Origin: Triatoma infestans
Taxonomy: Eukaryota; Arthropoda; Insecta; Hemiptera; Reduviidae
Assembly (NCBI GenBank): GCA_011037195.1
Contig: JAAEAF010000649.1
Span: 62,001-126,000, forward strand
Direction of reading: 5' to 3'
DNA length: 64,000 nt
In this document: piece by piece, positions 27,215 through 61,850 of the stretch
Numbering within the stretch: position 1 is the stretch's first letter
Layout of the letters: each line of letters begins with the position of its first letter
Made by a program: the position numbers and the translations under genes
The notes under the pieces: generated by a model
The model's input: only the letters and a program-made list of their open reading frames with translations
The model's database searches: none
What the model was told of the DNA's origin: nothing

Positions 27215-27440
27215 TATTTTTTCCGCTTCTTTTTGTGGTAATCGACCGAAATCGGGGCGCGTTCGCCCATCATCAGGATACTTTTCGTCAAACAGTGGAT
27301 AACATAGACTTTGATAAAGAGTAAATTTAGTATCAACTGTTTGACAAAAAGCATCCTAATGATGGGCGAACGCTCGAAACTGGTGATGACCACCAAAAGA
27401 AGCAGGCTATCATGGAAAATATTGCTCATGCTTTCCAGCT
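27215..27440 (+). mobile_element. Inverted-repeat retroelement with hammerhead-like motifs, 27-kb copy
   Basis: Two arms face each other around about 27310, each ending in the motif TGATGGGCGAACGC. The plus-strand motif is at 27351-27390 and the minus-strand motif at 27241-27281. The 3' tail contains GCTTTCCAGCTCTGCGGAACC-like sequence, shared with the copies at 39584 and 61808. Both core motifs carry substitutions (CTAATGA; GATTT for GAAAC). Confidence 0.65.
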
Positions 27441-27602
27441 CTGCGGAACCAATTTGCGAACACCTATACTTGTATTTGAAATATTATCCAAGGAAAACTA
27501 ATTTATAAGGAGTTCTACAGCAACTATATAGCATTACGCTATCCCCTGAAATACCCATCAACAATGTATGGTTTCACCAAATATTTATATATATAAGAAA
27601 AG

Positions 27603-27735
27603 GAAGGGTTTTTAAGTCAGTGGTAGCGCGCTGAACTAGCAACGCGGAGGTCCCGGGTTTGAGTCCAGCAGAGGTCCGGGAGGCCGGCGGTGCAATGAGA
27701 AAGCTTCGATCTTTAGGATAGCTCTATGGGTGCAG
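27603..27735 (+). mobile_element. tRNA-derived SINE, family 1, truncated
   Basis: A box TTTAAGTCAGTGGTAGCGCG and a B box GGTTTGAGTCC, with a shortened body (GGAGGCCGGCGGTGCAATGAG). About 100 bp of the usual body is missing. Confidence 0.75.
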
Positions 27736-27789
27736 AGGGGCTTGACAATAATAAAAAGGGGCCATAAATACTAAAAAAATACATTACAT

Positions 27790-28243
27790 AAATATTGCCA
27801 GAATTCCAAATTTGAAAAAAAAAAAATCGTTTAACCTAAAGTGCGACTTTACAGAATAAGAATTTTGAGAGGTTTTTGGTATTTTCTCAACAATTTCCTT
27901 TCAACTTGAAATGCTGACTTCACACATACACATACATATAAACTAAAAGTTTTTATTTTCAACATTTCCCAAGAAAAATTGAAATTGAAACAGATAAGTT
28001 CTGCAGAATTTGTGGCAAAATTTCAAATGTTATATTCATGTTTTCAATCTTATAAATGATATTGGCGCTCTCTTCTGTACTACATGTAATCATTCTACTA
28101 AAACAGACTGGGGGGGTTCTCTCGCTTTAAGGAGAAATGAATAAAAGTTGAAGTTTAAAGCAAAGTTGCATTTTATAAATAATTGAATTGCTTAAGCAGT
28201 ATGAGAAAGTAGTGTGAGTGTTTCACACCAGATTTTTTATATA
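27790..28243 (-). repeat. Rep-A copy, partial, with 5' end
   Basis: It ends at 28243 with GTGTGAGTGTTTCACACC, the hairpin end of the family, next to AGAAAGTAGTG. The interior is diverged. Confidence 0.55.
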
Positions 28244-28689
28244 AGAAATCTGTAAACTTGGTATTCATTCACCGTTTCATGAATAAACGGAAGTGACTTT
28301 TTCATGAATGTAATTACTAAATTTTTTCTAACACTTTTCCGAAAAGAATTATTTTAATTATGCTTCAGCAAACTGTCCCTGCAGAGGAAGTAAATTACAT
28401 TTTTTTTTCAGAATCTTGGCATTCCTAAACGTAACTCTATCTAGATGTTAGATATGTAGAGGGAATGGCTATAATCAAATCTACTGAGACCTAAAAGATC
28501 TATTGTGGTTCCCTTGGTTGTCAAGTCTGTTTTGCATAGTACGTAGTATAAAAAATTGTGCTGCCAAATAAATAAATAAATAAGAATTAACTCTGTCATT
28601 TCAATATTTATAAGTTATAAGTAACTAAGAGTAAATAAAATGGTTTATTATTATTAAAACTGTTTAATTAATGCTATTATTTTTGGTAT

Positions 28690-28910
28690 TGTCTAAGTTT
28701 CCAGTGGAGAGGCGGAGGGACAGCATCAAGATACGCACTGGTGAGCGTTGAAGAGACAGTTCAGTGACCTTCATGTACTACTAAAAGGTGAGGTAGCGAC
28801 CTTGCCATAACTCTGTGACCGCCTCCTCTTCATTATCACTCTTCAAGTACTAATACCGCTCAATAGATAGCGCTAGTTGTATCATTTATTAAATTTACTA
28901 CTATCGGAGA
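28690..28910. other. Unassigned GC-richer segment
   Basis: This stretch is richer in G and C than its flanks and has no open frame or repeat match that I can recognise elsewhere in the window. It could be a decayed unknown transposon, a regulatory segment or an unseen non-coding exon. Confidence 0.3.
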
Positions 28911-29721
28911 GGAGACATCTTTAAATAATGAATTATTTTAGTCTGTTAAAATAAACAGTTAATTTTCTATAACTATAACGTTAATATGGTATATAATAAT
29001 TCATTGCCAGTAATTCTTAATTTATTTAAAATTCTGGAATTGATTGAATGAACACAGTAAAACATTCTACGTATTACATACGAGTACCTGAATATAGGGG
29101 GTCAATTGTATTTATCACCTTTAATAATAATAATTACGTATTTTCCTGTTCTGATTATTTATTATTATCGAACATTAAGCTTTAAATAATTAATTTCAAA
29201 AATTTTCAAATTCATATAATCGGAGTTTTATCTTCTACTTGAAAGAAATGTATATATGTATATAGATACATAAAATGTTTACATTAGAAAAATTAATTAA
29301 ATGTATCTTTCTTATTGACACACTAATTCAAAATTATCTTATTTACATATTCTTGGTAAGTGTTCAAAGTGCGAATATTCGCTATCTTATTGATTAATTT
29401 AATTACTTAAAATTCGTTCTCTTTTCCTGCTATAATAATAATAATATCTAAAATTATATCTAAATCTATAAATAAGCACCCCTTGCATGTCTCTCCCTTT
29501 ACAAATTGTTGGCAATGACATTAAAAGAATTTCTCTTTAATCAAAAAAAAAAATTTAGCACGGTTCCAATAAAATATATATATATATACAATTGATTTAT
29601 AATGTATGTTTGGACTAATTAGATCTCATTTACTACTATTTTAATGACAAATTTTCCATAGTATTATTACAATCAAGCAACAAAAAGTGTCCTTAATAGA
29701 ATAAACAAAAAAAAAAAAATC

Positions 29722-30430
29722 TGGTGGGCAACCTGCACACATTCCACGACGCACATACACACGCGAAAATTGTTGAAACCGTTTTAGAGGAAATCTCCCG
29801 TAAATTGAAATAAATGTTTTGTAAAAATGTACGTACTTCCGGTTATCCGATTTTCTCTCCAATATCACAATTATTGGCATCATATTTAATCCTAATTTAT
29901 ATTATTTACATGATATAATTAATTGAAATAAAAACTTTAGAGAAAAACATAACTCCACCTCTCCTCCCAAAAAAGCTATAATTTAAATGAATTTTCCCAA
30001 AGAAATGTCGCAAATAAGTTGTAGCTCTTTGTATGTGTAGTTTTTATACTAGATTCAATTGAAAAATCGGTGCAGCAGTTTTCAAGAAAATTGTAAAAGC
30101 TGGAAAATGTATTCAGTAAAAAATGGTGGTATTTCCTGAAAGAGGAATTTTGACAGATAAGTTACTATCGATCGGATCCCATTGTGATGCCCCAAAATGG
30201 AATGTCAAGAGTCAACTTTCTGCGTTTCTTCGTGTTTGAGCTATGCTGTTCACATACATACATACATAAAGACATATACATACATACACACACACACGAT
30301 TTTGCAGTTACAAAAAGTAAAAAAGAATACTCGCGGGAAGATTAATTTTGATATTTCTTTTCTGGGAACTCTAGAAAAACCGAAACGAAGGTTGTGCAGT
30401 CAAAACCACTTATTCAGAGAATGATATAAA
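29722..30430 (+). repeat. Rep-A copy, plus orientation
   Basis: Shares ATCTGGTG at the start, ACTTCCGGTTATCCGATTTT, AGAGAAAAACATAACTCCAC, AGTTGTAGCTCTTTGTATGT, GAGGAATTTTGACAGATAAG and TTTGAGCTATGCTGTTCACA in the same order as the reference copy at 44782. It ends in an ACATAC/CACACA-rich stretch near 30250-30300. Confidence 0.75.
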
Positions 30431-31846
30431 CTAAAAATGTTTTTTTTTTTTTCAAATTTTGAAAATTTTCTCTAAACTGGTGCCAATAATTTTTAATTTT
30501 AAACATTACGTCATCTTTGATGACACAATACACATATATTTTTAGCCATATCTCTCTCATTTCTATATGAAACATTTTTATCTATTAGTAACTGAAAAAT
30601 GCAATGAAAGAAAGACGTGTTGTATACTAAATTTTTTTTACAGAAATCGTTTTGATTGGACACGAAATTTGGACTCTTTCCGGACAGTTTTCTAGTTTTT
30701 TTTTTTATTCATTCATAATAATACCAACTCCTGAAAGTATATTTTCAGAATAAAATAAATTCTGAATAACTGATAGAAATGAAAGATAAAGTATTTATAC
30801 AAATAAAATAATGCTAAACCAGAAATAAAGAAATGAAGTGTGTTTCCTTAAAGTTACAAGTGGAAGGGAGCACATACATTGGAGACTTGATAGTTCTATA
30901 AAGCAGATGGCCCTAAAACAACTTCTCTCGTACGGGGCACTCATATATATATACTAACACAAGCATCTCACACAGACTTTACTGCTTAAAGTGACTTTGG
31001 ACTCGTGGCCCTTAAATTCTTTTCTTTTTTTTTTTTTTTAATTCCCACTTGAACACGTTCCAGAACATGGCTAGAGGATAATCTGATATCTGTTTAATGT
31101 TTAAATTATTAAGCTGAACAAATATGGCCAATTGAACTCAATAATATTTCAATAAATGATAACACCTACACATAAAATCTAAAGGAAATGAAAACAGATT
31201 ATAAAGTAAGAGGTATAATAAATATTATATAATTTAATAGAATAAAAGCTATATAATTTTATTCAATAATCACATTAAAGTATCTATTTATCCTACACAA
31301 ATTGTGAATGCACAACATATATTGCCGCGTTCAAATATTTTATATTATCATCATTTAATCAATTACGTATTTGGTTTTTATCATTTTTTTTTTTTTTCTT
31401 GTAGTCTATCATTAATTGTTCTATATATTTCTAGATTCTGTTCTGATACAGTTTCATACGTTTATAACATTAATTGTAGACTAACAGAAGGTCAGCAATT
31501 AAGCTAATTATTTGAATAGAGATTATTTCTCAAAGGTAAACAACTTTTCTTTTAAACTTCACTTCACTCCTAACTAGGCAAAATTTAATTAAACATTCTT
31601 CTTAAAATTTAAAACTCAAAAGCCTATAATTAAACCAATAAATAAAGTCATTCTCGTATTTTATATCTCATTTGCGCTTCAAAAGATACAGCCTGATTTA
31701 GCCGGAAATCAATTGAATGAAAGTTAATTGATAACTAATTTATTGAAAGAAAATAGTTTTATTTCAACTTCTTTTACTGCTATATAAAGAAAATTAATAA
31801 AATCGAATAAAAATTTCCAAATTGGAAAAATGGGGGGGGGGGATTT

Positions 31847-32230
31847 GGTGTGAAACACTCATACCACTTTCTTCTTATTCCTTTTAATATAATTATGAAT
31901 GAAATGACAAATTTTCATTAAACTCAAATTTTATGTATTTGTCTTAACATAAATATAGAGGTGGTGGGGGAAAAGTACAAACCTACTCATCTTGGTAGGT
32001 AGAGAAGTGATGATTATATAATGGCCCAGTAGAGCGCTCTAAAACTAAAACCATCTAACATATAAAATGTAAAACTAACGCTACAAATTCAGCATAACTA
32101 TCCAATTTGTTTTTTTTTTTTGAAAAAATATTTCAAATAAAAGTAATATATGTTTTAACTGTGAAGTTTGCATACCAAGTTTAAAGAAAATCGATATATA
32201 GTTGTATTCGACAAAAGTGGAATGTTTGGG
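31847..32230 (+). repeat. Rep-A fragment, 5' part
   Basis: Begins with TTTGGTGTGAAACACTCATA and CACTTTCTTCTTATT. It keeps the internal order to AAGTTTAAAGAAAATCG, then stops before family 3 SINE sequence. Confidence 0.6.
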
Positions 32231-32271
32231 CCTAGAACCAAACACTCGGAACCCATGGGTAGTAAAGTAAA

Positions 32272-32466
32272 GTAATGCCTATTTTTTCAGGCGGGCTTAA
32301 CGTCCAACTACCAAATTAGGTGTTGTGGACGGGGGCGGAAGCACATACTTTAATATTAACATTTTTTAAACAAATATAAAATTTAGCATATATACGCTGG
32401 ACTCGAACTGAGGTACTCCCACTTACAAGTCCAAGCTCATAACCACTACACCAACACCCGCCCATC
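32272..32466 (-). mobile_element. tRNA-derived SINE, family 3
   Basis: The minus strand starts with GGGCGGGTGTTGGTGTAGTG (A-box region GTAGTGGTTATGAGC) and a B box GTTCGAGTCC. The body and tail motifs are shared with 5834-6045 (plus strand ATGCCTATTTTTTCAGGCGG). Confidence 0.75.
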
Positions 32467-32559
32467 GTCATATGGCTTAGCCATCAGCGAACTCAAGTGT
32501 GTCTAAAGACAAACACTAAAGCCCATGGGTAGGTTTCCTAGCATCTAGCAGGCGGATAT

Positions 32560-33310
32560 TCACGCTATTGGAAGGTGCGTTTAGTTGAACCTTGACAGAG
32601 GATATCGGAATCAGGAGAGATAGCTATCCTATCCGATAGTCAGGCGGCCATTAAAGCACTTAGTTCTCATGTTATCAGTTCTAAAATGGTATGGGAATGC
32701 CTAGGTAAGCTCAATGACCTAGGCAGAAGAAATAAAGTTACCCTATATTGGGATGCCGGGACATGTCGGTGTGGAAGGCAATGAGGTAGCCGACACCCTG
32801 GCAAAAGTAGGCGCTGTATCGCCTCTCTCATTGGGTCGGTGCCCTTTTGTGGCGTCAGTGACCAAATACTCTTAGAAGAAATCAAAAAGGAGGAGGTGGC
32901 GAAAAGAGTTCGTCTCTAGAACACCATACCGGGACTGAGGCAGGCCAAGGTCTGTCTGGGTGGCTGTAACCAGGAAAGGTCGAAAGTCTGCATCAATCTA
33001 AATAAGAACAGGATCCATATTCTTACGGGATTCCTTACGGGGCATTGCAGACTCAGGGGACACCTGAGGAAGAAGCTTGGCCTAGAAGATGATGATGGCA
33101 CATGCACATTCTATGGAGAGATGGAGGAAACTCCGATACATCTCCTCACCGACTGTAATGCCGTCATTCAAAGAAGATTTAGCAGTCTGGGCCATTACCA
33201 GATGGGGGGGGAGGAAAAATACCTACCCTAGAACCTTCCAGATTTTGGGATTCCTTAGGGAGCACAACCTGGTTATAGCTGAGCCTGGTTATAGCTCAAC
33301 CTGGCTGTAG
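32560..33310 (+). pseudogene. Jockey/R1-like LINE fragment with RNase H and C-terminal finger
   Basis: Across several frames the plus strand reads IAILSDSQAAIKALSSHVIS (with a base lost), MVWECLGKLNDLGRRNKVTL, MPGHVGVEGNEVADTLAKVG, then a region ending GLLTGHCRLRGHLRKKLGL-like and MEETPIHLLTDC. These are the last three RNase H catalytic blocks and the terminal finger of a non-LTR polyprotein, related to but distinct from the element at 21676-22510. Several frameshifts and stops are present. It is 5'-truncated, as LINEs usually are. Confidence 0.8.
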
Positions 33311-33364
33311 ATGATACAATAGTTCAAAATAATGGTCGCAGTACAGAACACTTAAAAAAAAATC

Positions 33365-33865
33365 GACATAATTCCAATAAAACTCGAAAACCTTTTCTAT
33401 AAAGTCGCTCTTTCCGGTTAACCGAGTTTCTACTAATTTGGAATTCTATCAATTCTTTCACTGTTTAAATTGGTAGTAAGCCAGAGGTATCCTAGAAAAC
33501 GATTAGAAACAGCAGTGTTAGGTATGTATGTGTGTAGACACTAGATATAGAAGTTTATAGAAAATTAATGGAACCGTTTTCAAGATAAACACAAAAACTG
33601 AAAAAACGCTGAATAATGTCGTACATCCCTGTAGATGGATTTTTTCGCGAAATCTTTCGTCTCTGATGCGCGGTGATAGTGCCTAAACGGAATAACAAGT
33701 TTCCTTTGCAACTTTTCTTTTTTGTAATGTGTTGTTTAACATATACACATAGACCATTCGTTAAAAACATTTATTTTCGTATTCTGGAGACCCCCAAAAC
33801 ATTATTTCCGGTGAAATCTCCATTTCGAAAATCTGGCACGATCGCAATACATGAGAACCGCTGAA
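33365..33865 (+). repeat. Rep-A copy, 3' part
   Basis: Carries CTTTCCGGTTAACCGAG, GATGGATTTTTTCGCGAAAT, GTGATAGTGCCTAAACGG, CCGGTGAAATCTCCATTTCG and GGCACGATCGCAATAC in family order. The terminal hairpin is lost. Confidence 0.6.
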
Positions 33866-34589
33866 TATGAAAAAAAATTCTAATGGAAGTGTGGATTTAC
33901 TAAACATTTCTTCTGTTTTTTTTATTTCGTCGTAATTTTCTCAACATTACGATTTTCTTAAAACTTTATAAACTTTTACATACAGATATAAAGTAATGGA
34001 CCTATTATTATCGTTTGAAACACTTTTCTGGGGAAATCGATTTTGGAAATTCTATGGAGAATTATGTTTTTCTCGAAAATATCGTTTACTAATTATGGTG
34101 TAACAATTTGAGCAAATATGCTTAATTTAAGAACCAAGTTATATGTACGTAATATTTTTAAGGTCATTTAAGATTTACCATAAAAATTCCTTGTTGGAAG
34201 ATAATTTATCAATTAATTATACAGTAGAAGATTTTAGTGATAGAGAATCGTGTGAATGGGTCTCATAAAATTTTAATTTAATACTTGGTACATTAAAGAC
34301 AGATATTCACAATTGGGACAGATATCGATTTTTTTTTAATAATTCTCTTTACAGAATCTATGGCAAAATGAGGCTTTCTTCCTATACATTTAATCTTAAG
34401 AACTCTAATACTAACCAAATAATGATGCAGACGTACAGACAGGCAATTAGAGAAGTCCATTAGGAGTGGATTAATTAAGAAGTATTTAAAGATGAATTCA
34501 TATCTATGTTAAACACTCTTTGAAATCCAATTGAATTCGAACCAAATTAAATTCTAAAAATCGTTTGGAATCGATAGATTAAATATTTT

Positions 34590-34849
34590 GTGGTCATCGA
34601 CCGGTTAAGGGCGTTCGCCTATCTTCAGGATGCGTTTTTCAGACAGTGTGACAACAAAGACTTGCACAGAGCAAATTCAGTTTACACACTCTGTGTGTAA
34701 ACTGAATTCAGAGTGTGTAAACTGAATTTGCTCTGTGCAAGTCTCTCTCTGTTGTCATACTGTCTGAAAAACGCATCCCGAAGATGGGCGAACGCCCGAA
34801 ACCGGTCAATGATCACAAAATGAAGCAGGCTACGACGGAAAATGTCTCT
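34590..34849 (+). mobile_element. Inverted-repeat retroelement with hammerhead-like motifs, 260 bp, 13-bp TSD
   Basis: Two arms of about 110 bp face each other around 34705. GATTAAATATTTT flanks the element at 34577-34589 and 34850-34862, a 13-bp target-site duplication. The plus-strand motif (34772-34811) has CCGAAGA, T, GGGCGAACGCCC, GAAA, CCGG and TC. The minus-strand motif (34592-34632) has an intact CTGAAGA but TTAA for GAAA. Target duplications of this length point to target-primed reverse transcription, not cut-and-paste transposition. Confidence 0.8.
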
Positions 34850-35068
34850 GATTAAATATTTTCTTTGGAAAATGGGGAAATAAGAGTAAACTATTACAAG
34901 AGTTTTTGAAAGATTTCCTTATTTTAAGATAAGAATTAAGACACTAGAACGTATTCAACTAAATTAATTCTAAACAAAAACATTTGCCATGAATTTAGGA
35001 ATCATCTTTAAAATTTTATTTAGTAAAAATGATAATATATAATATTAAAAAACATGAAATCGAAGGAA

Positions 35069-35892: not shown

Positions 35893-36800
35893 GGGGGTCA
35901 TTCAATTAAGTAACAAGACAAATCGCTGTAGCTCAGAAGCGGTTTGTTTAATCAATAAAATAGTTTCAGTGCGTCAAGTTGGCATCCTTGTACTTAGTTT
36001 CTTATCGCTGTTCAAAAGTATCTGATGGAAAGCATAACCTCAAATGTATTCAGTTAACAATGGCGAGTCCGCTCAAGCCTTTGCACCTCGGAAGAACAAG
36101 CTCAATGATTAGATTTCTAGTTGAACAGGGTATCAAAGGTTGTCAAATCCACGAAAGAATGTTGAAAGTGGACGGGAATAATTGTTTGAACCGTTCGAAC
36201 GTTTACAAATAGGTAGAACAGTTTAAAAGTGGTCGTGTAAGTGTTTGTGACGAGCAACGAAGTGGAAATTGCATCTTCCTCCTTCGAATCTCGCATTAAC
36301 GCGTTAATTCAGGACAACAGGCGTATTATTGTTAAACTGTAATATCTCAAAAAAACAACGTAAGGCCAGCCATTTGAAGGAAAGGTTGGATGGATTCTTG
36401 GACTAAAGGCGTGATTTTGTTTCATGACATCGTGCGCCCACACAGTGCGCAGTTAATTCAAGAGACACTTGAAAAAGTCGGGTGGGAGATCCTTCCACAT
36501 CCTCCCTAGAGCCCCGACCTCGCCCCTACTGACTCTCATTAGTTTGGACCCCTTAAAGAGGCTCGACATGGAAAACATTTTCAATCCAATGAAGAAGTTA
36601 AAAATCAGGTGCAAAAGTATCTTCCGAGATCAACCCAAAAATTTTCTGCCAGTAGCATACACAATTTAGAAGAACGATAGGACAAATATATAAATGTTGC
36701 TGGATACTATGTTGAAAAGTGGCCAAAGATTTCTTTTGATTAAATAAATCTTTTTTGCGCTGCAGCGAATTATCTCGTTATTTATTGAGTGACCCTCGTA
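35893..36800 (+). mobile_element. Mariner, second family, decayed copy
   Basis: Bounded by GAGGGTCATTCAATTAAGTA at the left and the matching inverted end near 36780-36799 (TTATTGAGTGACCCTC). The length of about 910 bp indicates an internal deletion relative to a complete mariner. A related copy lies in opposite orientation at 56992-57905. Confidence 0.85.
36060..36730 (+). pseudogene. Mariner transposase remnant (second family)
   Basis: The N-terminal part reads MASPLKPLHLGRTSSMIRFL, VEQGIKGCQIHERMLKVDG and NCLNRSNVYK, then a stop. The C-terminal part, in shifted frames, reads WEILPHPP-like, GPLKEA-like, KHFQSNEEVKNQVQK-like and INVAGYYVEK, as at the end of mariner transposases. The middle catalytic part is missing. 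Confidence 0.8.
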
Positions 36801-37962: not shown

Positions 37963-39739
37963 AAATCTGGTGTAAAACACTTACAGGACTTTCACAAATA
38001 TAATATAAAAAATTAGAACGACAAATTTTCTATAAATGTCAAGTATTGCTCATATATCGTAACATAGATATAGTGGTAGCGGTGGCAAGACAATCCTACC
38101 AACTTAACAACAATTTAGGCGGGTAGAAAATGATTACATTGCAAAGAATGCCCAATAATAATTTTTCTACCAACACATTTGAATTTCAACGTTTCGAACT
38201 TCACAAAACTACCTGAAAACAATTTTTTTTCAGAAAAATAGAGTGACAAGTTTTATATCCGGTGTAGTTAGTAAAGAGGAAGTTTAATAGAAATTCTTAT
38301 TATAGTAGTTTTTTTAAAAAAAAAAAAAATCCAAAAACTTGAAGAAAAAAAACCTATTCTGTAAAATCGCATTTTTGATTAATCAATTTTTATTAAATTT
38401 AAAATTCTAGCAATCCTAAATATATATATTGTTATTATATATGTGGCACAACCAACCATACATTATACTGAATTGTGTTGGTGTTTTAAAAGCAAGCTAA
38501 ACGCTATAGAATTTGCTAAAGTTATTATATTATGTATGTAGATAAAGTATGAAGTTTAAATAAAATCGTAGTTTCGCAAAAATTTGCGAAAAACTAAAAA
38601 AAAAAAAAAAAAGAAGAAAATCATTAAAGCCGCGCACTTCCGGTTGATAGATTTTGCCCGAAATGTTCGTCTAAGTATGTGGTGGTAGTATTAAAACGGA
38701 ATACCAAGTTTAATTAACAAAATTTTTTCGTTTTTGACATATTTTGTTCACTCATACACAAACAAAGGGACATCAGAGACATTTTCCGTGGTAGCCTGCT
38801 TCATTTTGTGGTCATCGACCGGTTTCGAGCGTTCGCCCATCTTCAGGATGCGTTTGTCAGACAGAGTGATAATAACATAGACTTGCACAGAGCAAATTCA
38901 GTTTATACACTGACTGGTCCTTTTTAATTGTATTTTAAAACTAAACTCTTAAACTAGGTCAAAGGGAGGTAGCTGGGTGGGAAAGGAACACGTGTTTGGG
39001 TCGTTAAAAAGGCAAATTTTCCTTAAAATGGAAACAACAACACGTCTAATTTTTAAATTCTGTTGTTGGAGGGAGATTCACTTGACAATTACATAATCAG
39101 AATAACTTTAAAATTAAATTAAATAACGATTTTAAGCTAACACAATTTAAAATTAAGCGATTAAAATTATAAAAATTAAATACACATAAGCAAATTGTGT
39201 TAGCTCGTTATTTAATTTAATTTTAAAGTTATTCTGATTATTTAATTGTCAAGTGAATCTCCCTCCAACAACAGAGTTTAAAAATTAGACGCCCCACGTG
39301 TTGTTTCCATTTTAAGGAAAATTTGCCCCTTTAACAACCCAAACACGTGTTTCTTTCCCACCCAGCTACCATGACTATAATACCTCCCTTTGACCCAGTT
39401 TAAGAGTTTAGTTTTAAAATACAATTAAAAAAACCAGTCAGTGTATAAATTGAATTTGCTCTGAGCAAGTCTGTGTTATCACACAATGTCTGACAAACGC
39501 ATCCTGAAGATGGGCAAACACCCGAGAAACCGGTCGATGTCCACTAAATGAAGCCCAGGCTACCACGGAAAATGTCTCTGATGCTTTCCAGCTCTGCGGA
39601 ACCAACCACCACAACATACAAAGAAGACCAATTTGTTCATATTTTTGTCTTAAGACATGTATTTCCTCCAGTGGTAGCTCAATTTAGAAAATCTATTACG
39701 ATCGCAATGCTTCCTCTTACTAGAAGTAAGAGAAAGTAA
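37963..39739 (+). repeat. Rep-A copy interrupted by the 813-bp inverted-repeat element
   Basis: The left part (37963-38770) starts ATCTGGTGTAAAACACTTAC, runs through CACTTCCGGTTGATAGATTT and stops at GTTCACTCATACACAAACAA. The right part (about 39620-39739) resumes with TATTACGATCGCAATGCTTC and ends in the terminal hairpin CTCTTACTAGAAGTAAGAG with AAAGT. The insertion therefore post-dates this Rep-A copy. Confidence 0.75.
38771..39583 (+). mobile_element. 813-bp near-perfect inverted repeat element with hammerhead-like motifs
   Basis: The left arm 38771-39147 and right arm 39192-39583 are inverted copies with few differences, around a 44-bp AT-rich loop. Both arms begin outermost with CATCAGAGACATTTTCCGTG (the right arm as complement) and include the hammerhead-like motif. 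The minus-strand motif at 38813-38851 has the full core CTGAAGA...GAAA CCGG TC with stem I CATC/GATG. The plus-strand motif at 39499-39540 has an extra GA before GAAAC. The right arm continues into the tail CTTTCCAGCTCTGCGGAACC. Confidence 0.85.
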
Positions 39740-41641: not shown

Positions 41642-41684
<43 letters not shown>

Positions 41685-41730
41685 ATAGAGTGAGAGAGAG
41701 GAGTAGTGAATGAGAGAGAGAGAGAGAGAG
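41642..41730. repeat. Microsatellites (TA)n (TG)n and (GA)n
   Basis: Consecutive dinucleotide runs: TA to about 41664, TG to 41685, then GA blocks at 41691-41702 and 41711-41730. Confidence 0.95.
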
Positions 41731-44611: not shown

Positions 44612-44781
44612 AGGGTGTACAATATACCCTACTCACAGGTCGGTGGATAACAATAGCACCATGTTCACCACCATCCAACCCTCGCACAACATGCTTCATT
44701 CACATTTTTCTATACCTGTTAGGTAAATAAAATATGATTAAAAAAAATACAATTATACATAAAAAAAAAAAAAAAAAAAAA

Positions 44782-46178
44782 TCTGGTGTGAAACACTCAC
44801 ACAACCATCTCTTACACCAGTTCTCAAAATTATAATTGACAAATTTTATAGTTTGTGTAGCAAATTTAATGAAATTCATCGACAACTGAAAAAAAACTTC
44901 AGTAAAAGCGCACTTCCGGTTTTACTAGTTTTCTTGAAACTGGGAATTTTGGCCAACTATTTATTTCTAATTAATTTTGTTTGGATGATAGAATTGTATA
45001 ATCAACTATGACAGCACTTTAGAGAAAAACATAACCCCACCCCTCCCCTAAAAATACCCTTAAATGAATTTTCCCAGAAAAAAGTTTTCAATAAAAGTTA
45101 TAGATCTTTGTACGTTTAGATTATATAGAAAGTTTCAAGAAAATAGTCGAAGACATTTTTGAGAAAATCGCGAAATTATTTAGTAAATTGGCAAAGTAAA
45201 CGCACTTCCGGTTATCCGATTTTTTTCAAACTCGGAATTTCAACAACATATACAATTCTAATTAATATTATTTAGATGACAGAATTGTCTAATAAACTGA
45301 AATAGCACTTTTGAGAAAAACCTACCATCACCCCTCCCCCAAAACTGCCCTTAAATAATTTTTCCTGGAGAAATGTTTCAAATAAAAGTTGTAGCTCTTT
45401 GAATATACGGTTGATATTTCGAGTTTAAAGAAAATCGTCGGAACCATTTTTGAGAAAACTGCAAAAAAGTAAAAAATCCAAGTAGTAAAAGGGTACTTCC
45501 GGTTGAGGAATTTTGACAGATAACGTAGTGTCAGATCCCAGGTGATACCTAAACAGAATAACAACTTTCAACTTCCTACGGTTTTTCGTTTTTGAGCTAT
45601 GCTGTTCACATACATACACATACACACTTCTATTTTCTAAAAACCACTTTTTGGGACTCAAGGTGACCTCAAAACGGAGGCCCACTGTTTCCAGTGAAAA
45701 CTCGATATCGAAAGTTTGGCACGATTACAATACTTCCTCTTACTAGGAGTAAGAGAAAGTAATTACAACCGTTTCATTGAGAATCAATCATAAGAAGAAT
45801 ACTGTTGTATGATGAGATACGAAGCAGTTATTTTCGAGTCCATATATCGGGAACAGAGAAACTTAAAAACGCCTTTGCCCATATATCTGATTCCTATCAA
45901 ATCAGTTCAAGATTTGAATGAAACACTGTGAACTGCTGAGTGCGAAAAGCCGAAATTAGGTCTCTCCTCTACTCTCTGTAAGATGAAATTTAGAATCTTT
46001 AGACATTTAGATGTAATGAGGCAATGGTTTTTGCCTTCTTTTGTAGGATTGCTTCATTGGTTGTAGAGTTTGTAAGTTTGAGGTAAAAATGTAATAAGAA
46101 AAACTAACAACTAAACAGGGTAAGTGTAAATCATAAATACCGTCTGGATGGACGGTATCGGAAATGGGTGCTGTAATT
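44782..46178 (+). repeat. Rep-A reference copy with downstream extension
   Basis: Starts TCTGGTGTGAAACACTCACA, whose GTGTGA/TCACAC halves form a hairpin. It runs through repeated ACTTCCGGTT modules (44910, 45205, 45497) to CTCTTACTAGGAGTAAGAG plus AAAGT at 45737-45760, a second perfect hairpin. A further 420 bp to GTGCTGTAATTA is shared with the inverted copy at 51769-53142. That extension contains the hairpin ATACCGTC/GACGGTAT at 46137-46158. It has no coding capacity. Confidence 0.8.
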
Positions 46179-46189
46179 AGTAGACGTTA

Positions 46190-46455
46190 ATTCACTTCCG
46201 GTTGAGGAATTTTGACAGCTGACGCACTGTCGGATCCTACGATAATATCTAAACGGAAAAACTTTCTATAGTTTTTCATTATTGGGCTATGCTGTTTACA
46301 TACAGACACACACACACACACACCGACACATCATTTGCTAAAAAACACTTTTTGGGACTCAGGGGACCTCAAAGGGACATTTCCGGTAAAAACTCGATAT
46401 CGAAAATTTGACACGATTACAATGCTTCCTCTTACTAGGAGTAAGAGAAAGTAAA
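46190..46455 (+). repeat. Rep-A 3' fragment
   Basis: Begins at CACTTCCGGTTGAGGAATTT and ends with CTCTTACTAGGAGTAAGAG and AAAGT. Internally it carries a CA-rich microsatellite-like stretch at 46309-46325. It directly follows the extension of the 44782 copy. Confidence 0.75.
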
Positions 46456-46566
46456 AATATAAAATGAAAATACCTAAGTTTTTGATTAGTAAACATTTAA
46501 ATTATGAATACCCTTGACTGTCTTCTACAATTATTATAACATGATTATGTAATTATGCAATGTATA

Positions 46567-51490: not shown

Positions 51491-51768
51491 TATAAAAAAA
51501 AAAAATTGATAAATATTGAACAAAACAAAATAAAGTGATATTTTAAAGTTTAATGACTTCAGAAAAGATAATTAAATCAGTGTTACTTAATATAAATTTG
51601 TTACGATATTATGGAAATTATGCCTAAGTTTTTATGGAAAAACAAGATGAATTATTTCGAAAGTGGCACGACTTATTATACTAGAAAACAAAGGCAAGAA
51701 TAATCTGTCGACTTATTGTTTATAAAAGACACATTGCAACATGTATTTAGGAGTGAATTAATGCCTAC

Positions 51769-53142
51769 TTATTACAGCACCCATTTCCGATACCGTCCAT
51801 CCCGACGGTATTTATGATTGACGCTTATCCTGTTTAGTTGTTAGTTTTTTTATTATTACATTTCTACCTGAAACTTACAACTAATGAAGCAATCCTACAA
51901 AAGAAGGCAAACCATTGCCTCATTACATCTAAATGTCTAAAGATCCTAAATTTCATCTTACAGAGAGCAGAGTGACCTAATTCGGCTTTACGCACTCAGC
52001 AGTTCACAGTGTTTCATACAAATCTTGAACTGATTTGATAGGAATCAGATATATGTGAGCAAATGTATTTTTAAGTTTCTCTGTTCCCGATATATGGACT
52101 CGAAAATAACTGCTTCGTATCTCATCACACAACAATACTCTTCTTATGATTGGTTCTCAATGAAACGGTTGCAATAAATTACTTTCTCTTACTCCTAGTA
52201 AGAGGAAGTATTGTAATCGTGCCAAATTTTCGAAATCGAGTTTTCTTCGGAAATATCCGTTTTGAGGTCACCTTGAGTCCCAAAAAGTGGTTTTTAGAAA
52301 ATAGAAGTGTGTATGTGTCCGTGTGTGAACAGCAGAGCTCAAAAAAGAAAAATCGTAGAAAGTTCAAACTTGATATTCCGATTACGTATCACCATGGGAT
52401 CCGACAGAAGTCATCTGTCAAAATTCCTCAACCGGAAATGCCACTTTACTTAATGTTTTTTTTCACTTTCTTGTGATTTTCACAAAAATGGACCCGACGA
52501 TTTTCTTCGAATTTGCTGAATCAACTGAACGTACAAAAATGTACAACTTTTATTGAAAACATTTCTCTGGAAAAATTCATTTAAGAGCACTTTTAAGAGA
52601 GGTGTGGGGTTAGGTTTTCCTCTAAAGTGCTATTTCAGTTTACCATACAATTCTGTCATCTAAATAATGTTAATTAGAATTAAATATGTTGTTGAAATTC
52701 CGAATTTGAAAAAATCGGATGACCGGAAGTGCGTTTTTACTGAAATGTATTTTTCCGTTTTATAGTATTTTCTCGAAAACGGCTCCAACGATTTTCTTTA
52801 ATCTAGGAATATGAACTACACAAATAATGAACCACCACTTTTATTTGAAACATTTCTCCTGATAAAGTCATTTGAGGTGGCTTTTGAAGGAGTAGTGGGG
52901 TTATGTTTTTCTCCAAAGTGCTGTCATAGTTGATTATACAATTCTACCATCCAAACAAAATTAATTTGAAATAAATAGATTGCCAAAATTCTGAGTTTCA
53001 AGAAAATTAGTAAACCGGAAGTGCGTTTTTACTGAACAGTTTTCGACGAACTTCATTAATTTGGTACACTAACTATAAAATTTGTCAATTATAATTTTGT
53101 GAACTGAAGTAAGAGAAAGTTGTGTGAGTGTTTCACACCAGA
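51769..53142 (-). repeat. Rep-A full unit, inverted copy of 44782-46178
   Basis: Minus-strand copy starting at 53142 with the GTGTGAAACACTCACACAAC hairpin end. It continues through the CTCTTACTCCTAGTAAGAG hairpin at 52186-52206 and the 420-bp extension to 51769. Order and length match the plus-strand copy, so the 1.38-kb unit is shared as a whole. Confidence 0.8.
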
Positions 53143-53429
53143 TTTTTTTTTTAATATGTAAAAAGATAATAATTTTTTTGTTGTTCCCATAGCACCATGG
53201 GTCTTTGTGGGCAGCCTATTCCCCACATCTCTGTCATTAAATTTCTTCCTGCTCCATTGCCTTACTCGCATTTTTTGTTTGTTTTGATCGTGATTTATGG
53301 TTCTGCAACCATCCGCCGTCCGGAGGATAACCTTCTTTCGCTAATAATTCGTTAACAGAAAAAATAATATAAAATTATAATACAAATAAAACTAAAGATG
53401 AATAGAGAAGGAAAGCTGGCGATGTAAAA

Positions 53430-55199: not shown

Positions 55200-56130
55200 A
55201 AATTTTATACACAGTTGCGCCATCGATACTCCAGTGCTCGAATTTTATACTTCGGAATTGGAATCCATATTTCTTCGCAGTACTGCATTTTCTCACGTTT
55301 GCGTAGAGGCTGAAATCCGAAGGAGCCAAGTCCCGTGAGATAGGGTGGATGCGACACAACTTCAAACTTCAATTCATGAATTTAGTCATTACACTGAAAG
55401 CTTTGCCCAGATGAAACAGAACTTTCTTCTTCGCGCCAGTTTACTTCAACTGCCCAGAAGAAGGTTAGAATAATATTTGGCGTCAATCGCACTGCCATTT
55501 TCTACATAATTTAACAACAAGATTCCTTCAGTGCCCCACAAAAACCTGAAATCCCTGTACAGGGGCCCCGCTCTTCGTCCATTTCGGTGTTCGTTCTCCC
55601 TTACCTGTCACTGTTCCGATTGCTATTTGGTCTCGAGAGTATAATAGTGGATCCAGGTTCTGTCCAAAGTAACAAACCGCCATAAAAAGTTGTAGATTCA
55701 TTACATTATAGATTAAGTTGGAAAAGTTATGGATTAGGTTGGATCGTAGAGAGCCAAACATTGTCCCGATAATATCACGCGTTGCAGTTTTTTTTGTTTT
55801 TTGAATACGGCACCCACCTTGCTGACAATTTTCTCATTCCTAAGATGTCAGTTATGGTTCTTTCGATATGTCAATTTCCATCCGCGATCATTCATAATGG
55901 TTTTATGAACTTTTTGGATGAATTCTTAGGTTGTAGCCGACTTTTTACTTCGAGAAAACTCTGCATCTTGACCGGTCTTACGACCAGTTTGAAGTCCGCT
56001 AACCACCTTTTGACAGTTGTAAAAAGCAGACCCCCCCCCATGTTGCGCCTAACTCCGCCTGAATCTTTGTAGGAGATAAATCTTTGATAAAAAAAATATT
56101 TTATCACGGCTCGCATTTCGATCACTCGAA
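55200..56130 (-). pseudogene. Mariner transposase remnant (third family)
   Basis: The N-terminus reads IEMRAVIKYFFYQRFISYKD and TTVKRWLADFKLV, typical of the mellifera-like group. The middle reads WTEPGSTIILS-like. The C-terminus reads HPISRDLAPSDFSLYANVRK, which holds the third catalytic Asp. Stops and frameshifts are many. Confidence 0.65.
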
Positions 56131-56250
56131 TTTTTGCATACTTGGAAAACAAAAAAACTTGATAACTTTAAACAGGCACAGATCAAGAATAACACAAAGT
56201 AGTTTTGGTTATACTTAAGATGGCATAGTCAAAATGGAGCTGTAAGCACC
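55200..56250 (-). mobile_element. Mariner, third family, decayed copy
   Basis: The minus strand runs from a transposase N-terminus near 56130 to a C-terminus near 55200. I could not define both terminal inverted repeats. It differs in sequence from the other mariners in the window. Confidence 0.65.
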
Positions 56251-56514
56251 ATCTCTATTGGGGGAGGTCGGAAACTTATCTACCCATCCTCGGATTAAAT
56301 ACAACTTTAGTAAATATTATAAAACTACATAAAATTGTATCCAACTTTTTAATTAAAAAAACATGTTTCATACATATATTTTTTCAAACTAAGACGTCCT
56401 CATACTTGTGTTCTCAGCAAATGTTGCACCATTAAACGTGCTTTCTCTGTCAAGAAAAATTCCATCACATTTGATTACGTACTTTTATCAGACCTGGAAT
56501 TCTCTAGCAACACC

Positions 56515-56830
56515 TTTAATTATTTTATCCGTCTTAGTATGCATTTTATATTGTTCCTGACCGGTTTCTGATTTTCATCCATCGTCAGAGCAAATTCACC
56601 AAGTTCTTGTAGAGAGTTCACTTCAACGAAATGTTTTTGTATAACAAATGTTATAACATTTGTTAGTTCCAATTGCTTTGAAGGAGAACTCTCTACACGA
56701 ACTTGGTGAATTTGCTCTGACGATGGATAAAAATCCGAAACCGGTCAGGAACAAAAGGAATATGCATGCTACGACGGATAAAATATCAAATGTTATCCAG
56801 CATTGCGGACACCCTTCCACATATCAACCT
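56515..56830 (+). mobile_element. Inverted-repeat retroelement with hammerhead-like motifs, divergent 56-kb copy
   Basis: Arms facing at about 56650 (ATAACAAATGTTATAACATT at the centre). The plus-strand motif at 56711-56750 is CTGACGA, T, GGAT/ATCC stem, GAAA, CCGG, TC. The minus-strand motif at 56556-56592 is CTGACGA, T, GGAT...ATCA, GAAA, CCGG, TC. The stem II sequence differs from the other copies while pairing is kept on the plus strand. The tail TTATCCAGCATTGCGGACAC parallels that of the other copies. Confidence 0.7.
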
Positions 56831-56991
56831 CTAATCCTCCTTAATGTTTGCTGCAGAAGAATGGCATAACTTTAAGGAAAACCTAATCATTTCCCAACTT
56901 CAGAACCCACTTAAATAAATTGTCATGGAAAATATTTCAAATATTTTTTGAACTACTTATAATTAGTTTGTACACCAAGATCAAAGTACGA

Positions 56992-57905
56992 GGGTCATTC
57001 AATAAGTAACGCAAATCGCTGTAGCTCAAAAAGATTTATATATTCAATGCAAAACTTTGACTGCTTTTCAACATAGTCCCCAGCAACATTTATGTCCCAT
57101 CGTTGTTCTAATTTGTATATGCCTGTGGCATAAAATTCTTTGGGTGATATCGAAGCCCACTTTTGCACCTGATTTTTAACTCCTTCATTGGATTAAAAAT
57201 GTTTCCCACGTAGAGGCTGTTTAAGGGGTCCAATCAAATAGAAGTCCGATGGAGCGAGGTTGGGGGGCTGTAGGGATGGTGTGGAAGGATCTCTCGCCCC
57301 ACTTTTTGAAGTGTTTCTTGAGTTAACAGTGCCTTGTGTCGGCGCGCATTGTCATGAAGCAAAATCAAGCCTTTAGTCAAGAGTCCACGACGTTTCGTTC
57401 GAATGGCAGGCCTTACTTCTGCCTCGCTTGCACTTCTTCAGCTATCAGTTCAACAGTAATACGCTAGTTGCCTTGAATTAACACGTTAACGCGAGATTCA
57501 AGGCAGGAAGTTGCAACTTCAACCGGTCGTCTACTTCGTAGCTCGTCACAGACACTTACACGGCCATTTTTAAACTGTTCTACCCATTTGTAAACGTTGG
57601 AACGGTTCAAACAATTCTTCCCGTACACTTTCAACATTCTTTCGTGGATTTTACTACTTTTGATATCCTTTGCAACTAAAAATCTAATCACTGAGCGTTG
57701 TTCTTCCGAGGTGCAAAGGCTCGAGCAGACTCTCAATTGTTAAGTGATTACTTTGAGGTTATGCTTATCAAATACTCTCGAGCAGCTGATGAGATACTAA
57801 ATACAAGGATGCCAACTGGATGCAGTGAAACTATTGTATTGATTAAACAAACCGTTTCTGAGCTACAGTGTGGTTCGTCTCGTTACTTACTAAATGACCC
57901 TCTTA
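56992..57905 (-). mobile_element. Mariner, second family, decayed copy (inverted relative to 35893)
   Basis: Ends GAGGGTCATTCAATAAGTAA and its complement near 57893-57905. The minus strand carries RSVIRFLVAKDIKSSKIHER, MLKVYGKNCLNRSNVYKWVE and QFKNGRVSVCDELRSRRPVE, the N-terminal helix-turn-helix region, then decayed C-terminal pieces. The DNA-binding region is longer than in the 35.9-kb copy. The catalytic middle is missing or unreadable. Confidence 0.85.
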
Positions 57906-59099
57906 TATCAGTGGAACCATATCGAAAAATGGATATATTTCGCCAATTACCAAATTCGGTATTTGGTAAATGTTACTTCTGGTTAACCAATTTGATCAAA
58001 ATCTTAAGAACGGTACATAAATGAAATATTCAGTTTTGCATTTTCTGGGATTTTTAGTTTTTGAACTGTAGTGTTCTACACACACCCACACATAATAGAG
58101 TGAGAGCGAAAGAGGCCCAATTTAAAAAAATCGCCAATATGTATTACTCGGGGGGTGGGAGGTGTTCAAAGCAAGAATTTCTGGTGAAAACTTAACTTCG
58201 AAAAATCCAAGTGCAAGAGAACTATTAAATCTATTAAATTTTTAAAGTCATAAAAAAAATAAATAGAATAATTTTTCATCCGAAATATTGGTTTGAGTCC
58301 TGTTATTTTACTTGTTTTAATTATGCATGGAATTCACCGACTTTATTTTATGATTTCAAAGTGTGGCTGCATAATTACATTAAGTTGCTGAAATAAAGCA
58401 TACTGATCAGTTTGTAGGACCAGCGTTAAGTATAATCCATTTAACGAAATCGTCTTGTAGTTCATAAATCTGATTACAATAAATTATTAGAATAATAAAG
58501 ATATAGTCAACAATTTAAAATATAATTTCAAATAAATACAAAATAATAAAATTTATAAAAAAACGAACAAGGCAATATATTACTGGATGGAGAATAGAGA
58601 GTCGTAATTTATTTGGTCCCAAATATAATATAATATGGGAACAAATATAATAGCGAGCGAATCAAAAAGAATTTCCACGGTAATTGTGGGGCAAATAACG
58701 TCCATCTAAGACCTCTGACCAAAGTTCATTGTGGTACGTGGCACTACTCCACTATTTCTAAACCACAACAGACCTTTTCACCTCATAGTTCCGCCGCTCT
58801 TCAAATTCCTCACGGTATTTTTCCTTTAGTAAACATTTTTCATAAATTTTCTTCGTTTCATGATTCACTTTATCCCTTTATAGTTTTTGGATCATTGGAT
58901 TCGAAACGAAAGGTTGAGCCTATAATTAGGGCTTCTGTACTAATAACACCACGTAATAAGTGCCGTATGTTATTGCACTTTGTCGAAGTAAGTTAGCGCT
59001 TTTCGGCTAGAATTTTCGATCATTTTCTTTAACTTTGTGGTGGTAAAGCATTTTGTCAGCCCACACGTATGCTCTCTGTCACATTTGTGGCAAAAAGAA

Positions 59100-59510
59100 A
59101 ACTCCAATACCTCATTCCGACACCAGAGAGACTCCACGAAGAGGAGTATAAATAAAGTTAAGCACTAACACTCCTGCATTACAACATTACTACTGCACAC
59201 TCCTGGACACCATACCAAGCGCATAGCGCCAAAACCAGTGCATAAAGTCACTTGGTCTTGCCTAAATAGTAGGCCACGTCCAGTCCGTCTTTTACCGCAG
59301 CTTCTAGAGCGAACTCAACAAAGTTTTGGGCACTTTTTATCAGTTCATGAAACTCCCCCCCGGCCAGTTCTGACCCCTTCTTCCCTCCTTGAATTCCATT
59401 TGGATTCCTGCTCGTCGAGGAGAGGACACCGAAAGAGAACGTGACGCACCATGTCGCGCTCACCGCTCACCAACAAATTTGCCAATCTGATCTTGTTAAT
59501 ATTTTACCGT
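59100..59510 (-). pseudogene. Probable LINE C-terminal fragment
   Basis: In two minus-strand frames: GERDMVRHVLFRCPLLDEQ, the finger-plus-RHVLF-CP pattern of LINE C-termini, then after a frameshift GGEFHELIKSAQNFVEFALE and AAVKDGLDVAYYLG. The zinc-binding Cys residues upstream are not clear. It could also come from another retroelement class. Confidence 0.45.
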
Positions 59511-60634
59511 TATAGGTTGGAGTTCGATTATCTCTGAAGTGAATTACATTCCCCGCCCGCCATTTAAAGTAGAATCATAAAATTGGAAAGTTTAGGAACA
59601 TGGAATTTTTAATTGTTATTTTAAATTTTAATTGTTAACGTAAAAAACATAATCGTTGTGGTGGGAATATATGTTTGTTAGCATGTATAGCTGATTTACA
59701 TGAATTTGATATTGTGATTATTGTCTGGTATTCCAGCATCTCGATTAAATCTCTCTAGAAAATTAATTTAATAAAATTAGAACATTTTTCGGTGATGTAT
59801 AGAGTGCAAAGTTTAAATAAAATCATTGCAGCTGTAGAAATATTAAACTTTGAATTATATTATAAAACATCCAAAGAAATAACACTGCTCAAAAATAATT
59901 AGACATTATAACAAATTCTTTTAAGGAATAAACTAGAAATAACAACAACGCACAGATGGTAATCATGATAAAGATATTAGTGGAATTATGAAATATGATT
60001 CATAATAAAATATAAGGACATAACATTATTTCAGGTGAATGTAAACACGAATAAGTGTAACTGCTCTAAAAGAAATCCTAAATTGGTAATACAGAGATGG
60101 AAATCTGTTTAGTATAACAAGATTTAAGAAATATACAATAACAAGTAAACAAGATAAGTTGGATAGTATTCAACTAAATTAAAATTGTCCGGCCATCATA
60201 TTTACTGCCCACTAGTTTACGTGTTATGTTTAAATAAATAATCGTCACAACTCACAAACCTACATAATTTATATATATATAATACATACAAACACACACA
60301 CATATTACGCTGGAATGGCGGTATATTTCTACATTTACACATAACTTCATAAATTAATATAAGATAAACTAAAAAAAAAAGAAAAAAAAGAAGTGTTACT
60401 TCATTCGTGAAATGACTATAGATATCTTCATCATTACTAGTGAATAAACAGAAACTGAATAAATCTTTTATTTGTGCATACATAACACAGTTTTTATTTT
60501 CTGTTACTCTTGATAAAAAGAAGTAGAGCAATCGTGTTTTTTATATACATAACATTTTTAATAATAATTTAGTGAATTTTTTGAACTTTTTCATAAAGAT
60601 AGCGATCATTTAATGAAAAACCAAAAACAAAAAA

Positions 60635-61240
60635 TCGGCTGTGAAATACTCACACAGCTATCTATATCATCTATATCTCTTCAGTGCTTATACATTATCT
60701 CAGTTATTACGACAAATTGCCGTCAAACTTGGAATTTTTACTAGATCTGATTCACCTAATATTACATTAATTTAAACCGGAAGAAATTGAAACTAAAAAC
60801 GACACATGAGGGGCGGTGACCTTTCTGCACCGCCACAACAATCCTAAAATCGGAACAATAGTTTAAAACAACTCGGAAAAATAGTTAAAACAGATATCAA
60901 ATTAATTTTGGCACTTTTATCGAGAAAAACACAGAAAACTAAATTAATACGAGATTCCGGAATATTAGAAAATTTGACTTCCGGTCGAACAATTTTTTTT
61001 CCCGAAATGGGTAATTTTGGCGAAACATTTATTATTACTATAGCATTTAATAACATAAATTATTATTACTAAACATTTAATTAATAATTATTATATTAAT
61101 TATAGATTAATATAATTTTATACCATAGAAAAATGGTACTTTAGAAAGAAAGCCTAACCAATGGTTCCGTCTCCCTCAACCCCAATATAAATTTTTCCAA
61201 AAACAGCTTTTTATTTGGGGAGTTAATATAATTTTTCATC
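60635..61240 (+). repeat. Rep-A copy, 5' part
   Basis: Begins TCGGCTGTGAAATACTCACA (hairpin end mutated). It continues with ACTTCCGGTCGAACAATTTT and AGAAAGCCTAACCAATGG in family order. The 3' half is missing. Confidence 0.55.
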
Positions 61241-61689
61241 TTATGACAGACAGAAATTCAAGAGAATGACAACAACAAGAATCAATCACTTACGGAAGAT
61301 AAGTCTGCAATTAAACAATTCCGCACTACCGCTTATAGGATGCTTTTCTGATTGAGCCTGGAAACATAAGCTTTGTTTAAAAAAAAATCTCAACTGATAC
61401 ATAAACTCGGACTCATAATGAAACGCTTCAAATAGGTTGTTGAGCTAATAGGAAAAAAATCTAAGGATCGCATCTGACGATATTGGAAGGAGAAGTCAAG
61501 GAGAGGAGTAGAAGTGGACTTTTGCTTAAAAGGCAACTTTCTCCCTAATTCTGTCATTCACATGCCATTCCAAAAAACCATCAACGTTCAACGACCATCG
61601 TTCTAACGCCCCACTCTGCCAGTCAGTTTGTCATTCTCTTATCACGCTACCGACTCCTCTTTTTAACATATAATTGCACTCTGAAAATA

Positions 61690-61850
61690 TAAACTGATTT
61701 TGCTCTGTGCAACTGTGTTATCACACTGTTTTAAGACATCCTAATAATAGGGCGAACGCCCGAAACTGGTCGACGAGCTCAGGCTATCACGGAAAATATT
61801 TCTGATGCTTTCCAGCTCTGCAGACACAACCACAACAACTAAAATAAGTT
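61690..61850 (+). mobile_element. Inverted-repeat retroelement, single arm
   Basis: Holds one arm only: TTTGCTCTGTGCAACTGTG, the motif at 61736-61777 (CTAATAA, T, AGGGCGAACGCCC, GAAA, CTGG, TC) and the tail GATGCTTTCCAGCTCTGCAG. The left arm is absent, so this copy cannot form the long hairpin. Confidence 0.6.

Follow-up and report, generated by a model that had tools for sequence, protein, structure and literature searches.

Inverted hammerhead-bearing repeats of Triatoma infestans pair one long with one short tail, as in probable insertions of Penelope-like retroelements

In a stretch of 64,000 nucleotides from the genome of Triatoma infestans (contig JAAEAF010000649.1 of assembly GCA_011037195.1, positions 62,001 to 126,000; here called the window), a motif resembling a hammerhead ribozyme is present in both arms of several short palindromes. 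This raises the question of why a ribozyme motif should come in inverted pairs. The first-pass annotation implied that the inverted layout is tied to the ribozyme. We find that the layout mostly follows a rule of another kind: in most palindromes the two arms end at two different fixed sites, one giving a long tail and the other a short tail. This pairing suggests that a Penelope-like element (PLE) is reverse transcribed from both strands of its target, the hammerhead being carried along.

The palindromes of the window belong to two families, A and B, which share the hammerhead core and have no blastn match to each other. Positions along an arm are counted from an ATG that the hammerhead overlaps in both families, taken here as the presumed start of an open reading frame (ORF); the predicted hammerhead cut is at +24, that is, 24 nt into this ORF. 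The genome (941 Mb in 13,959 contigs) contains 22,659 exact matches (11,371 + 11,288) to the 17-base sequence CTGANGATGGGCGAACG, and none to its reversed control. The 100 places listed for this sequence were merged into loci, and the first 60 of these, in the order of the list, make up the sample analysed. Arms were called by motif match, with at most 8 mismatches of 30, and were counted as neighbours when within 600 bp. There are 108 arms in the 60 loci (reversed control, 0). Their close neighbours are divergent in 32 cases, convergent in 2 and tandem in 3, and a divergent pair is present in 30 of the 60 loci. Among the first 100 places listed for CTGANGATGGGCGAACG, G000:C19:115612+ / 115724- is the sole convergent close pair.

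The outer ends are striking. For the 107 arms that have a flank (one has none), 53 end at a short-tail site (S, at about +68), 43 at a long-tail site (L, at about +102) and 11 elsewhere. The two sites are 34 nt apart and both are sharp, the aligned copies stopping after GTCTCTGA(T) and after CACAAC(AA). They match a PLE feature, the optional 3' tail of 30-40 bp. One could imagine instead a retrozyme-like origin, in which RNA circles processed by the hammerhead are reverse transcribed and the hammerhead delimits the unit. The hammerhead core with its covarying stem II (described below) and the short, AT-rich character of the repeats would fit such an origin, but tandem neighbours are rare (3 of 37 close neighbours), and 96 of the 107 ends lie at S or L and not at the cut. 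The only three arms scored near the cut (+22 to +24) are the family B copies L019, L045 and L062, where the family A reference stops matching. We give this explanation scarcely any weight.

The two sites are not combined at random. Of the 32 divergent pairs, 31 could be analysed (one lacks a flank), and 24 of these have one long and one short tail, with one S+S pair and no L+L pair. When the tails of the 25 classifiable pairs were shuffled 100,000 times, the highest count of L+S pairs was 22, against the 24 observed. The long tail is on the left in 13 of the 24 and on the right in 11. The same rule is seen across the genome. A search with exact patterns at one spacing, whose counts of repeats are lower bounds and whose patterns miss mutated copies, found 1244 matches in which one arm is L and the other extends at least to the S site, whereas L on both arms was found in 25 matches at 16 places (reversed control 0 in each case). 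Of all arms in the genome that reach the S site, 8696 of 20,816 continue to L (42%; reversed controls 0); in the 60 sampled loci the same exact patterns give 22/63. If the arms were independent, about 520 of the 1244 should be L+L, and the 25 found represent a deficit of about 20-fold. Family B has 92 exact 30-base copies in the genome (control 0), and an ungapped alignment with family A keeps both end coordinates.

A possible hairpin lies between the two sites, with UUCC..GGAA in family A and AUCC..GGAU in family B, including one compensatory change. On the sequence of these two families, it is possibly an RNA handle for the enzyme.

The elements of the window, with their tails and hammerheads, are as follows.

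27208-27452 (ends approximate): family A palindrome, short-tailed on the left and long-tailed on the right.
27247-27276, minus strand: hammerhead remnant in the left arm of this palindrome, without GAAA.
27356-27385, plus strand: hammerhead remnant in its right arm, with CTAATGA.
34577-34589: left copy of the target-site duplication of the next palindrome, a 13-bp direct repeat GATTAAATATTTT.
34590-34849: family A palindrome; right end with short tail, left end about 40 nt past the ATG position.
34599-34628, minus strand: hammerhead remnant in its left arm, TTAA replacing GAAA.
34778-34807, plus strand: hammerhead core in its right arm, U4 altered (CCGAAGA).
34850-34862: right copy of the target-site duplication, which may overlap the short-tail end.
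38771-39615: family A palindrome, the longest in the window; short tail left, long tail right.
38813-38850, minus strand: best hammerhead core in the window, from stem I to stem I.
39504-39535, plus strand: hammerhead remnant in the right arm of this palindrome, extra bases preceding GAAA.
56521-56826 (right end approximate): family B palindrome; short tail left, long tail right.
56559-56588, minus strand: family B hammerhead core, stem II pair 1 broken.
56717-56746, plus strand: family B hammerhead core, stem II GGAT/ATCC.
61688-61839, plus strand: family A single arm, a piece of pseudo-long terminal repeat (pLTR) with long tail, hammerhead core broken.
15013-15038, minus strand: one copy of a GAAACGTC-type hammerhead remnant, outside the range covered by the first-pass annotation.

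This list differs in some respects from the first-pass annotation. The pattern reported at five places is indeed present at all of them, either intact or as a recognisable remnant, several of the family A cores being damaged. The core named as the best, on the minus strand at 38.8 kb, is a full one and reads CATC CTGAAGA T GGGC gaac GCTC GAAA CCGG TC GATG. The copies had all been assigned to a single family, from which the 56.6 kb element has to be removed (family A comprises those at 27.2, 34.6, 38.8 and 61.7 kb), and the copy at 61.7 kb is a single arm, with a broken core reading CTAATAATAGGG. The window has 8 matches to the pattern CTGANGAT-N4-25-GAAA, while 100 shuffles average 1.11 and none reaches 8; by reading, 4 of the 8 fall in the named elements (5 rows, one arm being matched twice).

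Is the motif a hammerhead at all? Rfam hammerhead models, run over the window as the first-pass annotation had proposed, gave no match at the gathering threshold, and these models expect canonical stems. The only hammerhead family with an E value up to 10 was HH10 (E 8.6; 21.7 bits, where the gathering score is 75), and its match spans a palindrome. Some microRNA-like Rfam matches at 27.2, 34.6 and 56.6 kb coincide with the palindromes and were rejected. A relaxed descriptor, also proposed there, was run as well. It allows for 0 or 1 extra base following A9 and calls for GAAA and a stem II of 4 bp, and it has 69 matches in the 317,060 bases searched and 1 in the reversed sequence. An unpaired extra base after A9, which had been listed as a deviation, is present in all 69 and is thus the rule; it is U in families A and B, and mostly A in a further class of motifs, named here after its sequence GAAACGTC. 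Stem III is self-complementary in 53 of the 69, as would be expected if the hammerhead pairs between two copies, and this holds for both classes, with CCGG in families A and B and CG in the GAAACGTC class. A 2017 paper reportedly concerns, to judge by its title, PLE hammerheads that cleave as dimers.

The pairing of the stems was analysed next to controls. The core searched with no pairing requirement has 90 matches in 326,072 bases (reversed control 0), which give 60 unique rows, for the most part of families A and B. Standard pairs make up 50, 57, 52 and 48 of these rows at positions 1-4 of stem II, and 56, 52, 43 and 54 at positions 1-4 of stem I. With the partners slid by one, the counts become 52, 55 and 7 for stem II pairs 1-3 and 20, 20, 5 and 16 for stem I. 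Stem II pairs 1 and 2 are therefore uninformative, being both G-C and equally well matched when slid, and the informative pairs are stem II pair 3 and those of stem I. The GAAACGTC class has 2593 genome matches (control 0). Its 53 unique strings among the 100 places listed, compared with shuffled partners, have a standard stem II pair 3 in 48/53 (51% shuffled) and pair 4 in 41/53 (47% shuffled), with a weak excess at pair 6 (27/48 against 40%) and no signal at pair 5 (44/50 against 82%); covariation is weak where the composition is skewed. Among the same listed matches, neighbours within 1 kb are divergent in 8 cases, convergent in none and tandem in 1. The claims that stem II changes with its pairing kept, and that both arms bear a minimal hammerhead with a loopless stem III, are supported, the former by covariation between the families. 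On its sequence, the motif is the minimal hammerhead of PLEs, with self-cleavage as a predicted property. Two sampled loci have GAAACGTC-type hammerheads with a longer stem II, GGACACC/GGTGTCC and GGCAAA/TTTGCC (L010 at about 390-1700 and L024 at 2550-2600); L010 has a divergent pair 1.3 kb apart, and over 106 nt its arms are 87% alike.

The U that follows A9 in families A and B doubles as the U of the ATG codon, and it might be argued that the motif is merely the coding start of a PLE protein (PKPV codons) with no RNA structure. The frame from this ATG is open for 34 codons in both families and the other two frames contain a stop, which speaks for this argument. Against it, the differences between A and B have no codon-position bias (9, 9 and 12, of 26 each), and most GAAACGTC strings have A for U and hence no ATG, yet keep the standard stem II pair 3 noted above. 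The argument is very unlikely to be right. By analogy with the PLE of the anole, discussed below, we take the ORF to start at the hammerhead ATG; the analogy is needed because the tail shows no clear coding bias.

Evidence for the parent element comes from the longer copies L040, L049, L058 and L059, which have reading frames upstream of the pLTR. In L049 this region contains a GIY-YIG domain (25.3 bits, Pfam cut-off 22.6), and L059 scores slightly under the cut-off, at 21.7 bits; the pieces of L040 and L058 have no GIY-YIG match in Pfam. One endonuclease fragment has two distant relatives among database proteins, and none in the PDB. According to a 2026 paper, the GIY-YIG endonuclease is not common to other retroelement subclasses (PMC12910113). 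The elements are probably 5'-truncated insertions of endonuclease-bearing PLEs.

The flanks support insertion at a staggered break. A flanking direct repeat with a score of at least 9 is present in 26 of the 31 pairs, against 0.23 expected from swapped flanks; these duplications are AT-rich and mostly 9-15 bp long. Short duplications around pLTRs in direct order, inverted order or both are a PLE feature, found here in the 32 divergent pairs and these 26 duplications. Among the 24 L+S pairs, 20 have a duplication that overlaps the short-tail end, and 17 have one starting within 0-2 bases of the long-tail end. Short-tail ends (AT, GAT, TGAT) are overlapped far more than long-tail ends, as though base pairing of the RNA with the target assisted the short start.

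Some copies outside the close pairs follow the same rule. In 9 of 44 such arms (1.9 expected), there is upstream a duplication with a score of at least 9 followed by the start of an antisense tail. This stub is of the opposite tail type in all 9, 6 being short-to-long and 3 long-to-short. For example, the 1.5 kb copy L058 terminates in an 11-nt inverted short-tail stub, and L059 in a 48-nt inverted long-tail stub. Among 25 further arms, 7 have a duplication with a score of at least 12 within about 420 nt (0.8% expected for each), and one of the 7, L038, is a stub with mismatches in its start.

The centres of the palindromes vary, the inner distances of the 32 pairs ranging from 54 to 477 nt, with different join points. 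Arms are more alike within an element (mean identity 0.81) than between elements (0.72), and the value within is the higher in 25 of 27 comparable pairs. Such a pattern is what a fresh joining of two cDNAs at each insertion, copied from one RNA or from sister RNAs, would leave, rather than copies of one palindromic master. The alternative that the palindromes are DNA transposons, such as miniature inverted-repeat transposable elements or foldback elements, which move as units and captured a hammerhead by chance, would account for long inverted repeats and target-site duplications. It is highly improbable, given the varying centres and unequal ends in the sampled loci, the single-arm and stub copies, the same layout in two families with no blastn similarity, and the PLE-type endonuclease upstream in longer copies.

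On the basis of these observations, we propose the following mechanism, which we hold to be probable. In an AT-rich target, the PLE enzyme would cut the two strands about 10-13 bp apart, leaving a staggered break. Both target 3' ends would then serve as primers for the copying of PLE RNA, each from its own internal site: an AC-rich one at about +102 of the presumed ORF would give the long tail, and one at about +68 the short tail. The two cDNAs would extend towards the 5' end of the RNA, passing the hammerhead and the pLTR, before a head-to-head joining at a point that varies. The product would be either a palindrome or a longer copy that ends in a short inverted stub, having its tails outward and the target-site duplication outside. 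An arm of more than about 100 nt would carry the hammerhead uncut, because the hammerhead is upstream of both starts.

A different route to inverted repeats has been proposed for the PLEs of Adineta vaga, namely self-priming on an antisense template (PMC3846280). Here one cDNA would fold back and be copied, and the resulting hairpin would be inserted. Palindromic junctions, a head-to-head layout and the likeness of the arms within an element are all consistent with self-priming. By itself it does not predict two different fixed outer ends (24 of 25 pairs; 25 against 1244 matches genome-wide), nor inverted stubs of 11-48 nt and of opposite type on copies of 1.5 kb. The pairing of long with short tails thus favours priming on both target strands, one for each start, and we regard self-priming as unlikely. 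A stronger form of the two-strand reading is that two-ended integration is built into the PLE machinery, through an asymmetric and probably dimeric complex that uses each start once, so that inverted pLTRs and stubs are its normal product and the hammerhead, lying upstream of both starts, rides along. For this form we consider the chances to be about even.

A number of observations weigh against priming at both ends of an endonuclease-bearing PLE. In the sample, 6 of the 31 family A pairs have one unclassified end, and about 6 of the 25 further arms look single-ended, with a duplication at the truncated 5' end and no stub. Family B is less clean: the 7 pairs judged by eye (that of the window at 56.6 kb, L036, and 5 from 12 further loci) comprise 3 L+S, 1 S+S and 3 unclear, 2 of the last having a short and a partly extended tail. 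In the window, a clear target-site duplication is found at only one palindrome, that at 34.6 kb; the flanks of the other three of the four have none (best scores 5 at 27208-27452, 7 at 38771-39615 and 6 at 56521-56826), nor have those of the single arm at 61.7 kb. No reverse transcriptase domain was found in the fragments analysed, the copies being 5'-truncated; the piece of L058 has no Pfam match to one and no database relative. The absence of codon-position bias between A and B also counts here. Finally, the start site of the anole enzyme is reported to be equal between top and bottom strands in bulk (PMC11167929); for this to agree with the mechanism, each of the two sites must be open to each strand.

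What, then, does the hammerhead do in these insertions? In predicted minimum-energy folds of the four window palindromes, on both strands, the far arm takes up 29-38 of the 38 hammerhead bases, with no local pairing among them. A transcript contains one sense arm, and this is predicted to pair with the antisense arm, as would be expected of any hammerhead transcribed within a palindrome; the implied tie between the inverted layout and the ribozyme is not supported. Since most of the measured outer ends, at +68 or +102, are downstream of the predicted cut, the templates of these insertions must have been uncut at the hammerhead. On both counts the hammerhead is read as carried along, and judging from the modelled folds it looks like a passenger in these palindromes. 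In agreement with this, cleavage mutants of the anole PLE insert normally (PMC11167929). The role of the hammerhead for the PLE would lie elsewhere in its cycle.

Among the closest known systems is this anole element, the Poseidon PLE of Anolis carolinensis (PAc). According to the paper that describes it (PMC11167929), its hammerhead is at the junction of pLTR and ORF with the ORF starting at stem II, it has a GIY-YIG endonuclease and AT-rich targets, and two adjacent internal starts of reverse transcription, at an AC-rich site, define the tail, all as here. The cut is 26 bp inside the ORF, compared with the 24 nt predicted here, and the starts are at 111-118 bp, compared with about +68 and +102. 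In vitro the enzyme cuts and extends both strands, from two adjacent starts. The passages concerned do not mention inverted insertions or target-site duplications, and its assay, being done in bulk, does not link both ends of a single insertion. The Penelope of A. vaga resembles the present elements in its head-to-head inverted pLTRs, a pLTR that covers the first ORF codons, an optional tail of 31 bp on one inverted pLTR, and duplications 8-10 bp long (PMC3846280). It differs in that few copies are described, with self-priming proposed and hammerheads unmentioned in the passages concerned, whereas thousands of copies are present here and the pairing of long and short tails has been counted.

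Minimal type I hammerheads, in which most of helix III is lacking as it is here, are described for PLEs and Terminons, are widespread in animal genomes and are thought to act as dimers, according to two reviews (PMC7229834, PMC7761336). The metazoan retrozymes share with the present elements type I hammerheads in short, low-GC repeats derived from retroelements; they are described as tandem, with a fuller helix III and loop contacts, whereas the present arrangement is mostly inverted and minimal (PMC7229834). The minimal PLE and Terminon hammerheads were reportedly the subject of Cervera and de la Pena in 2014 and of Lunse in 2017. The Penelope of D. virilis is said to have 34-bp inverted ends, a statement that we did not find confirmed in the literature searched.

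Several other features of the window were noted. Positions 24000-24807 and 25856-26660 are neighbouring copies of one element, 95-97% identical; the latter includes an ORF (25996-26358) that we take to resemble the N-terminus of a mariner transposase. An open frame on the minus strand, 18363-18728, with GESGAGKTENTKKV, presumably resembles an exon for the P-loop of a myosin motor. A large inverted structure is formed by 44772-46467 and 51752-53152, with many blocks 74-97% complementary and 5.5-8 kb apart, and further copies of these blocks are near 54.1-54.7 kb. Another inverted pair, 35926-36689 and 57088-57868, is 80-90% complementary and about 21 kb apart, and encloses the 38.8 and 56.6 kb elements.

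Inverted pLTRs with a tail on one of them had already been described, for rotifer copies. What is added here is the pairing of long with short tails, counted at genome scale; no report of such a paired count was found in the literature searched, although older papers may hold one. The rule that one long tail goes with one short tail, based as it is on a large number of copies in the genome, constrains the mechanism of PLE integration directly and in a way that can be tested, and it would also explain why minimal hammerheads occur here in inverted pairs.

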